Assembly (NCBI GenBank): GCA_001799575.1
Contig: MGTT01000015.1
Span: 140,801-204,800, forward strand
Length of the DNA: 64,000 nt
DNA from: Elusimicrobia bacterium GWA2_56_46
Lineage (GTDB): Bacteria; Elusimicrobiota; Elusimicrobia; Elusimicrobiales; UBA9959
Direction: 5' to 3'
Below the pieces are notes generated by a model. The model made no database searches. It saw only the letters and a program-made list of their open reading frames with translations, and was not told the origin of the DNA. This document shows positions 26,840 to 31,116 of this stretch, in pieces. The number at the start of each line of letters is the position of its first letter. Within the stretch, counting starts at the first letter, position 1. Made by a program: the position numbers and the translations under genes.

Positions 26840-28543
26840 ATGGGAGCGAACAAGAAAAATATTCCAGGGCTGCATAATTTCCTTGCCGTAACACTAGTCG
26901 CCGGGATAGCGGCGCTCCTCGCGTTCCCCCCGATTTGCGCCGCCGCCGGCTTCAAGATGAACTGGGTGGAAAGCGAAGTTACGCTGGACAGGGACGGAAA
27001 AGCCCGGGTCTCTTACTCGGTCCGGTGGACGGCTTCCGGAGGGCCGCTGCACGGTTTCTATTTCGAAGGGTTGCAGGAATCCCCGGTCTTTGACAGGGCG
27101 GGCGCCTACGCTCTGGACGGGGCCGGCAACAGGTATCCCCTTGAGATCAATAAACTTTCCGATAAAAAATACGATATTGTTCTCGCGGACGGCCGGGCCT
27201 TTACGGACGGAAAGATCACTTACTTTTTCCGCTACACCGCGGATCTCGAAAGATCCGGGAGTCTGGCCCTGACCGACTTTCCGCCGTCTTCGGATCCGGA
27301 AGCGCCGGCCCAGGTCCGGCGGGCGGGCGGGGGGGCCGGGGATAAGCGGCTGGTGGTGTTCAATTGGGCTCCGGTTCAATGGCAGGATGCCATGGCGCAT
27401 CAGGCCGTGACCGTGCGTTTCCCGGTGAGCGCAGAAAGCGGTAAATCCTGGGACGCATTTCCGGCTCAGGCTGGATTCAGAACCGATAAATTCGTCAACG
27501 AGCGGTATCTGGTAGATTATCCAGAAGTAAAGAACGCCGAAGGAGAACGAGTTTTCAGCGCGCGTTTTTTCCGGCGCGGCCTTGAGAGCCGCTATCATTT
27601 CCGGATACAAGTTTATCTGGATGCGCGGTACTTCGAACTTAAGACCGGCGCCCCCGGAGCTCTCCAGGAGGCCGCCGCGCAAAAGGAAAACCCCCAGCCC
27701 GCCGGAGAAAAACATTACCTCAACCGCTATTTCCCCGGCGGCATGCTCGCCGGCCTGCCGCTTGACCGCGGCGGAAAGGTTTTACTTGTGTCAGCGCTTG
27801 CCGCGGTCTTTTGTCTGCTGCCCTTTTTAATAATGACCGTTAAACACCGTTCCATGCTGACCGCGCAGGAAGGCCTGTCCGCGGTTAAATGGGACGGGAC
27901 GGAATGGACGCCCCCCAAATTACAGATGGGCACTTTCCGCAAGCCCGGAAAGGTTTCCGCCAAATTGACGCCCATAGAGGCGGGGATGTTGCTGGGTATG
28001 CCAGTGGGAGAGCTGTTGTCGCTGAGCCTGGCCAACATGGAGCGTAAAGGCCTGCTGAAGATCAAAGCCGTGGAGCCGCTCTGCGTGGAAAGAAAAAATT
28101 ACGCGGGCCCGGGCGGCGACCCTTATGAAAACGTTCTTCTGAATTCCGTCAAACCGGATGGAACGCTGGACCAGGGCGCGGTTAATGAAACGGTTAAGAC
28201 TATCGCGGCCGGCCTTGAGCAGAAGCTCTGGGACTGCGATCTTGCGGCCTCCAGGACTTATTATAAAAAACAGCTTGACGCTTATCAGCCGGGCAAGGCC
28301 GACACGGACAAAGATTATTATTGGGGCGGCTATCGGCGCCGTTTTAACGGCTACATCAATCCCATTTACGCCCGTGTTGAAAGCGTGAATAAGGATCTGG
28401 GCGCCAAAGTGCCGGAACTTGCCTCGTCATTCGAAAATTTCAGGACCACGCAAGCCTGCTATGAAGGGGCTTTTAACCGGAACGTCTGCCATGACGCCTG
28501 CCATTCCGCGTGCCACTCGGCCTGCGTGAGCGCGGGACATTGA
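26840..28543 (+). CDS. DUF2207-like membrane protein with a C-terminal Cys/His tetrapeptide repeat
   Basis: 567 residues. An N-terminal signal helix (about 13-36) and a large exported beta-rich domain ([20 protein letters not shown] onward) as in DUF2207 proteins; a membrane helix at about 313-335 ([20 protein letters not shown]) puts the remaining 230 residues in the cytoplasm. The last 18 residues are [18 protein letters not shown], a Cys-every-fourth-residue repeat. Its codons differ between units (Ser as TCC, TCG, AGC), so the pattern is kept at protein level. The radical SAM enzyme encoded next has a peptide-recognition domain, making this tail a candidate substrate. I start at ATG 26840; a TTG at 26804 is unlikely. 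Confidence 0.75.
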   Translation: [567 protein letters not shown]

Positions 28544-28547
28544 AGAA

Positions 28548-28577
28548 GTGGTTAGTGGTCAGTGATTAGTGGTTAGA
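28548..28577 (+). repeat. heptamer array, single arm
   Basis: GTGGTTA GTGGTCA GTGATTA GTGGTTA, a 7-bp period, with no mirrored arm visible before the next gene. Same family as the arrays at 33.5, 43.0 and 43.4 kb. Confidence 0.7.
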
Positions 28578-28618
28578 GAGGAGTAAAGAATATTTCTAGT
28601 GACAATTGGAAAGCAGAG

Positions 28619-30052: not shown

Positions 30053-30064
30053 TCCTTCATCCTT
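29939..30064. repeat. palindrome plus mirrored heptamer array at the end of the radical SAM gene
   Basis: A 26-bp perfect palindrome (29939-29964) centred on CAATTG is followed by AAAGGAT AAAGGCT TAAGGAT AAAGGAT GAAGGA (period 7), a spacer, and the mirrored arm GCCTTTAGCCTTTATCCC… to TCCTTCATCC then T6, which would also terminate transcription. The first half is translated in frame as the enzyme's C-terminus. Confidence 0.75.
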
Positions 30065-30072
30065 TTTTGAAT

Positions 30073-31116
30073 ATGAATTTATTTCCACCGCCCGATAAGA
30101 GCGGGCAGATAAAATTTATCGTCGGTAAAAGCCTGCCGTATAAAACGCGCATGTGGCTGGTGGCCGCTTTGCTCCCGGCGGGTTTGGTGCTCCAGGCGGC
30201 GCTGTCTTTCTGGCCCGGTCTTGTCCTCCTGCTGGCGGCCTCGCTGCTGGGGATGGTCAAAGGTTACGACGCCAGGCCCAAGATCACCTCCGGCCTGCGA
30301 TGGGAAAGGGTTACCCCCGACGAATACGCGAAAATAAAGCTCAGGGCCGGTCGGTTGGAGCGCTGGGACGAGGATCTTTTTGACATCACCGGCAGGAAAG
30401 GAAAACTGGCGTTCGCCGCCGCGTTCGTTTTAGTTCTGGCCGCCTGCCTGGATCTTGCGGCCAGGTTCGGTTTTTATGAAGGTTCCGGTGTTTTTATAGG
30501 TCTTGACGCGCTTATTCTCCTGGCGCCTCTCTGGTTTACCGGCATCAGGGAATATCTGCGCAAGGACAAGCTCATCATCAAAATAGATCTTCTGGGACGG
30601 GTGATGGAACTGCTGGCCGCGCCAAGCGAAGCGCAGGTCTTTCCGATGCTCGCGCTGGCAAAAACGGAGAAAGGCGGGACGGAGCCGGCAGACGCCAGGC
30701 TGCTGGTGAAGCTGGTGGGCGCCCCTGACGCTTTTTACGGGATACAGGTGCAGGTCTCCATCAACACGGTGCGGGGAAAAGATTATCCGTACCTGTATTG
30801 CGCGCTTATCGCCAAAGAGGGAAGCGGCTTTCTTAAAGATCATGCGCGGTTTGTTCCCAAGCCGGCCGTTTCTCCGGCCTTATCCATTCTTAAAAAAGTG
30901 TCGGCCGGGCTTGGTTTCTCCGGCCGGAAGCTTGTCTATGAAGAGCGGGAAAATCCGGATACTGACATTCTGATTATCAGGCAGGGTACGGAGACGAAAT
31001 CCGGATATTACACCGGGTCGCGGGAGGCAGCCGCTATAGTGACGGCTTCGCTCGAAGTGGCGAAGAAACTGGCCGCCGCCAATTCCCCGGCGTTCCCCTC
31101 CGCGGCGTGCCGCTGA
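30073..31116 (+). CDS. polytopic membrane protein of the radical-SAM cassette
   Basis: About 347 residues with two pairs of membrane helices: MWLVAALLPAGLVLQAALSF with WPGLVLLLAASLLGM, and KLAFAAAFVLVLAACLDLAA with IGLDALILLAPLWFTG. A soluble C-terminal domain of about 170 residues follows. I do not recognise the family. ATG 30073 (or TTG 30067) comes just after the mirrored array. Its position makes it a third member of the cassette, possibly an export or membrane partner (inference). Confidence 0.6.
   Translation: MNLFPPPDKSGQIKFIVGKSLPYKTRMWLVAALLPAGLVLQAALSFWPGLVLLLAASLLGMVKGYDARPKITSGLRWERVTPDEYAKIKLRAGRLERWDEDLFDITGRKGKLAFAAAFVLVLAACLDLAARFGFYEGSGVFIGLDALILLAPLWFTGIREYLRKDKLIIKIDLLGRVMELLAAPSEAQVFPMLALAKTEKGGTEPADARLLVKLVGAPDAFYGIQVQVSINTVRGKDYPYLYCALIAKEGSGFLKDHARFVPKPAVSPALSILKKVSAGLGFSGRKLVYEERENPDTDILIIRQGTETKSGYYTGSREAAAIVTASLEVAKKLAAANSPAFPSAACR

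Follow-up and report, generated by a model that had tools for sequence, protein, structure and literature searches.

The window analysed here is a 64,000-nucleotide stretch from contig 15 of the 2.66 Mb draft genome of Elusimicrobia bacterium GWA2_56_46. It contains a cassette of three consecutive plus-strand genes at positions 26840–28543, 28619–30052, and 30073–31116, an arrangement that had already been recognized in a sequence-only reading of this DNA. The cassette is bordered by a divergent gene encoding an ACT-domain protein on one side and by nifU-nifS on the other side. The features of the cassette are the following:

26840–28543, plus strand: gene 1, DUF2207-like single-pass membrane protein of 567 residues, presumed substrate (from homology and topology)
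27767–27847, plus strand: sole predicted transmembrane segment after the signal peptide, residues 310–336 (from a hydropathy scan)
28430–28474, plus strand: conserved block preceding the tail, FxxFRxSxxCYEGAF in most relatives, candidate RRE docking site (from alignment)
28487–28540, plus strand: C-terminal tail (C-H-x-A)3-CVSAGH; relatives have seven to eight CHxA units (from sequence)
28619–30052, plus strand: gene 2, radical SAM/SPASM enzyme of 477 residues, presumed tail maturase
28619–28888, plus strand: PqqD-like (RRE) N-terminal domain, residues ~1–90 (from HHalign, AlphaFold2, and weak PqqD HMM matches)
28979–29458, plus strand: radical SAM core with the CxxxCxxC motif C125, C129, C132 (PF04055, E = 3.9e-28)
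29687–29890, plus strand: SPASM domain with invariant C357, C372, C411, C414, C420, C424 (PF13186, E = 1.3e-7)
30073–31116, plus strand: gene 3, membrane protein of no known family, with a C-terminal alpha/beta domain and about four transmembrane segments

The sequence-only reading had also placed a leaderless-type promoter in front of gene 1. The hexamer TATAAT is present at positions 26827–26832, but the -35 region is poor, a promoter scan made no call, and relatives of the locus show Shine-Dalgarno-like sequences instead. Therefore, the promoter assignment was abandoned. In six of 11 relatives, the reading frames of the enzyme and of gene 3 share 4 nt, as is typical of translationally coupled genes. 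A palindromic dispersed repeat of about 100 bp (29965–30065, with arms 29965–29997 and 30033–30065), which has 58 matches in its own genome, overlaps the 3' end of the radical SAM gene of the window. The final ~35 residues of the window enzyme are derived from this repeat, are absent from other species, and lie outside the conserved enzyme. The spacer between genes 1 and 2 contains a second dispersed repeat (28545–28580, GTGGTTAGTGGTCAGTGATTAGTGG) with 12 other genomic matches.

The protein encoded by gene 1 is built, in order, from a signal peptide, an extracytoplasmic domain, one transmembrane segment, a cytosolic domain, and the repeat tail. The hydropathy-based topology predicts that everything beyond residue 336 is cytosolic, in agreement with the cytoplasmic C-terminus proposed previously. 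The match of the window protein to the DUF2207 model PF09972 reaches 20.9 bits, just under the Pfam cut-off of 24.4, yet ten of the 12 members of the protein family match the model, with a best E-value of 6.7e-9, and three cassette proteins exceeded the cut-off in a separate test. The protein is counted as DUF2207-like, as the earlier reading had suggested. The alignment of 12 members revealed a block directly before the tail in which F531, F534, R535, C540, Y541, G543, A544, and F545 are invariant; the preceding residues 496–530, located between W495 and F531, contain no invariant position. Judged from this alignment, the FxxFRxSxxCYEGAF block may be the docking site of the RRE.

The tail of the window protein is the shortest that was found and contains only three CHxA units and four cysteines, which indicates either that tail length is not critical or that this copy is reduced. 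The standard tail has eight CHxA units and the typical ending [S/G]ACVSSGH, and seven units are present in G133 and in three genus mates of the window organism (G221, G222, and G307). Because the tail of G307 is longer and shares the ending CVSAGH, the window copy looks like the outcome of an in-frame loss of four CHxA units, either real or introduced by assembly; the weight of one case like this short tail is limited by the quality of MAGs. The repeat with cysteine at every fourth residue was described correctly from the window, but the tail taken as its example is the most reduced one and not the typical form.

Among the 18 species whose tail has the standard form, 33 of the 35 tail positions are invariant, including the Cys and the His of every unit, while nearly every tail codon varies synonymously. 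Which unit carries D, S, or G also stays fixed across the standard tails, with two exceptions. Nei-Gojobori counts gave pS 0.61, pN 0.049, and pN/pS 0.08 for the tail, and pS 0.56, pN 0.27, and pN/pS 0.47 for the body of gene 1. The repeat units of the window itself use different codons, as noted previously, and the synonymous variation together with the low pN/pS in relatives agrees with the earlier claim that selection keeps the tail. By this substitution pattern, the tail is maintained at the protein level. The tail is far beyond chance, because the 11 related loci bear a longer version of it and its DNA pattern matches cassette-bearing genomes only. The canonical DUF2207 proteins of the cassette-free genomes G260 and G167 end in glycine-rich GGGGRVGRGGGGGGGRSW. 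CHxA runs in viral contigs were dismissed, since all 41 stretches proved to be either short frames or repeats of low complexity, with no similar protein.

The second gene encodes an enzyme in which PF04055 and PF13186 confirm the proposed radical SAM core and SPASM domain; PF13186 scores over its cut-off in the window enzyme and is matched in all 12 members. The SPASM motif is CX9-15GX4C ... CX2CX5CX3C ... C. The invariant spacing in the enzyme is C357-x14-C372 and C411-x2-C414-x5-C420-x3-C424, and the single Cys that closes the motif was not seen further downstream. Fourteen cysteines are invariant in 12 species (C91, C125, C129, C132, C136, C138, C340, C354, C357, C372, C411, C414, C420, and C424). 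One HHalign profile-profile comparison of the N-terminal domain with PqqD gave a probability of 83% and an E-value of 8.6e-6, and AlphaFold2 predicted a beta3-alpha3 domain at residues 24–88. Among library HMMs, the PqqD models matched weakly and below cut-off (E 0.005–0.2), and little else matched. Together, these results give moderate support to the PqqD-like RRE identity that the sequence-only reading had assigned to the domain. The genome of the window also encodes two more small stand-alone PqqD proteins (L142 on C29 near 40394, and L143 on C11 near 239913), each of them close to a radical SAM-like gene, which suggests other peptide-modification systems in the same genome.

Foldseek and sequence profiles placed the enzyme, whose AlphaFold2 model has a low mean confidence of 59.7, near SkfB, SuiB, PqqE, BlsE, viperin, and MoaA. 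Of these, SkfB, SuiB, and PqqE are peptide maturases and are among the nearest structures. The best family scores of the enzyme are to the heme enzymes NirJ2 and AhbD, far under cut-off. Membership in a listed NCBIfam radical SAM family was rejected, as none of the 25 best models was over its cut-off. A tblastn search of plasmids with the enzyme returned matches of less than 60% identity only, the best of which were PqqE, TIGR04053, and other radical SAM proteins. Profile searches with the gene 3 protein matched no family, protease, or exporter, and its moderate-confidence model matched no solved structure at E <= 0.001.

Peptides from the gene 1 body were scanned against the GTDB genome collection, which identified 11 related loci, nine of which are titled Elusimicrobia or Elusimicrobiales and two 'bacterium' only; beyond Elusimicrobiota, the search covered these body peptides. 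The three genes are in the same order at all 11 loci, and the flanks are alike wherever the contig is long enough. Within 295 genomes of the phylum Elusimicrobiota, searched at E <= 1e-5 for the DUF gene, E <= 1e-50 for the enzyme, and E <= 1e-5 for gene 3, all three genes were found in the same 20 genomes and were jointly absent from the other 275. The DNA pattern of the tail is present in 19 of the 20 cassette genomes and in no other genome of the 295. In G291, the twentieth genome, similarity to the DUF gene ends short of the tail, as it would where a contig is cut off. Among thirteen further members of the bacterial family, another five cassettes were found, all of them with both the tail and the enzyme, in agreement with the exclusive co-occurrence among the 295. 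In total, 24 of the 59 genomes of this uncultured family carry the cassette, as does G133, which belongs to a neighbouring family. The G133 cassette lies in unrelated surroundings and has 40% identity to the window in the DUF body and 67% in the enzyme, and its tail repeat is kept. We looked in the 295 and 13 genomes for a tail without the enzyme and for the enzyme beside unrelated substrates, and neither case was seen. The exclusive pairing, including that of the divergent G133, supports the proposal, put forward from the window alone, that an RRE-bearing radical SAM/SPASM enzyme modifies the Cys-every-four tail.

Most of the examined family members that lack the cassette still have the ACT gene beside nifU-nifS; in G229, 186 bp separate the ACT gene from nifU. 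A functional link of the cassette to nifU and nifS was dropped, because both stay beside the ACT gene in cassette-free relatives. Genome G295 contains a 49-residue relic of the DUF gene between the ACT gene and nifU (L197, 1501–1647, minus strand), with no enzyme and no tail, and this piece is read as a scar of cassette loss. A NifU tree, in which most forks are weak, requires at least three changes of state (gains or losses of the cassette) on well-supported branches and nine by parsimony. At loci L012 and L013, NifU groups with a large genus, and the radical SAM protein falls outside the well-supported clade of that genus; this may mean that the cassette was replaced without a change of site. 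Several family members have an open reading frame for a hydrophobic protein of ~178 residues, of no known family, beside the cassette site (in L154, L155, and L156, in the interval from the ACT gene to nifU), which is absent in the window. The idea that it is a replacement gene in cassette-free genomes was discarded; it is more likely an ancestral neighbour, because a similar protein seems to end in the DNA directly upstream of the cassette in several relatives.

Based on the anatomy and distribution of the cassette, a mechanism can be proposed in which the three genes act together as a single unit of post-translational modification. In this view, the DUF2207-like protein would be anchored in the inner membrane and expose its C-terminus to the cytosol, where the PqqD-like domain of the enzyme would bind the FxxFRxSxxCYEGAF segment beside the tail. 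The radical SAM and SPASM clusters would then modify successive C-H-x-A units in the cytosol; the tail is probably the substrate of the enzyme. Cys-derived thioether cross-links are the most likely product, by our estimate just short of an even chance, and a His-directed bond is less likely. The modified tail would most likely stay on the protein, because the cassette has no recognized gene for a small precursor peptide, protease, or exporter. It might form a rigid Cys/His rod for metal binding or redox chemistry at the membrane, with the gene 3 protein acting as a partner. The whole reading, with the enzyme docking beside the tail, modifying the units in place, and the tail being retained, is in our judgement likely. 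Points in its favour are the exclusive pairing, the gains and losses of the cassette as a whole, the low pN/pS of the tail, the RRE-like domain, the overlap of the enzyme gene with gene 3, and a topology prediction that puts enzyme and tail on one side of the membrane. Points against it are that the best family scores of the enzyme are to heme enzymes and that the RRE match is of moderate probability. The His is kept as strictly as the Cys and is not required by simple thioether chemistry, which suggests that it binds metal or is itself a target. The tail may bind metal with or without covalent modification. We speculate, with considerable doubt, that a bond hitherto unseen in a repeat, such as Cys-His or His-Ala, might be formed at every C-H-x-A unit, and that the tail would thereby become, at the inner membrane, a permanently attached rod that conducts metal or electrons.

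Invariant Cys and His in every unit are also expected of metal ligands, and Cys and His each recur at i,i+4, a spacing that fits metal sites along a helix. The tail could thus be an unmodified array binding Zn, Cu, or Fe, with the radical SAM enzyme, whose best sequence scores are to heme-pathway enzymes, acting elsewhere in the pathway, for example on the gene 3 protein or on a small molecule. We consider this unlikely, since such an array is expected to occur sometimes without the enzyme, and no tail-only or enzyme-only genome was seen; the PqqD-like peptide-recognition domain of the enzyme also argues against it.

The repeat resembles a core, lies at the very C-terminus, and follows a conserved block similar to a leader, which raises the alternative that the tail is a RiPP core on a membrane carrier and is cut off as a small peptide or cofactor. 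The membrane protein of gene 3, a constant companion of the other two, would export or cleave it. Such a release is quite improbable, because neither a protease nor an exporter family was detected in the gene 3 protein, cassette-free genomes retain the neighbouring genes too, and the body of the protein is large, conserved, and more than a leader. That the tail is a low-complexity or DNA-level repeat without function is hardly credible: the number of units varies, the window copy is reduced, and canonical DUF2207 proteins also have low-complexity ends, but the amino acids and nearly all unit positions of D, S, and G are fixed while the codons vary.

The preferred reading, modification of a retained membrane-protein tail, has partial parallels among known systems. 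ACGX-repeat peptides pair with radical SAM/SPASM enzymes of TIGR04340. The cassette shares with them the enzyme type and the Cys-every-four repeat, and the tail can be read as (A-C-H-x)n; it differs in having His in place of Gly and a membrane protein tail as the presumed substrate. The enzyme scores 92.6 bits against the TIGR04340 cut-off of 400, which, with the ACHX tail, places the pair outside the ACGX family. The His-Xaa-Ser system (HxsA with HxsB/HxsC) also has a regular-His repeat and predicted radical SAM maturation, but no Cys periodicity and two radical SAM enzymes, whereas the repeat here is C-H-x-A; scores of 73 bits for HxsC (cut-off 267.9) and 84.7 for HxsC4 (cut-off 500) exclude membership. 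QhpD, the maturase of quinohemoprotein amine dehydrogenase, is a radical SAM enzyme that forms several Cys thioether bonds in a retained functional subunit, and is thus a precedent for cross-linking of a protein that remains in use (PMC7876137). Its substrate differs in being the small subunit QhpC with an N-terminal leader and Cys-to-Asp/Glu bonds, and not a membrane protein or repeat tail (PMC7876137). Radical SAM enzymes also act on repeated units in the case of the ranthipeptide maturase PapB, with Cys-X3-Asp/Glu units (PMC9413430), and of TvgB, with a TVGG-repeat peptide (PMC9062424), but their substrates are peptides; the enzyme scores 73 bits with the PapB model, for which the cut-off is 340. 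The DUF2207 protein SMU.243 of S. mutans has a large extracellular N-terminal part, a large intracellular C-terminal part, and a low-complexity end (PMC10457818), but the tail of such proteins is glycine/serine-rich, and the literature found describes no radical SAM partner for them.

The candidate substrate is a 567-residue membrane protein and not the short cleaved precursor of a RiPP; the system may work like a RiPP pathway but is not filed as one. In the open-access literature, no paper on DUF2207 also dealt with radical SAM enzymes, and none on Elusimicrobi- and radical SAM concerned the pair of gene 1 and enzyme by title or abstract. A link of 5-thiohistidine to DUF2207 was dropped, as the authors of the paper concerned reject it themselves. 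We found no published description, within open-access literature, of this pairing of enzyme and tail; a membrane-protein tail would be an unusual type of substrate for such enzymes. RRE-bearing radical SAM/SPASM enzymes are usually sought beside short precursor peptides, and a presumed core located, as here, in the tail of a large membrane protein would escape small-peptide searches. The exclusive pairing in the searched genomes and the nearly frozen repeat make the cassette a clean test bed for a radical SAM-modified membrane-protein tail, and would provide a functional handle on a branch of DUF2207, a widespread and poorly characterised family.
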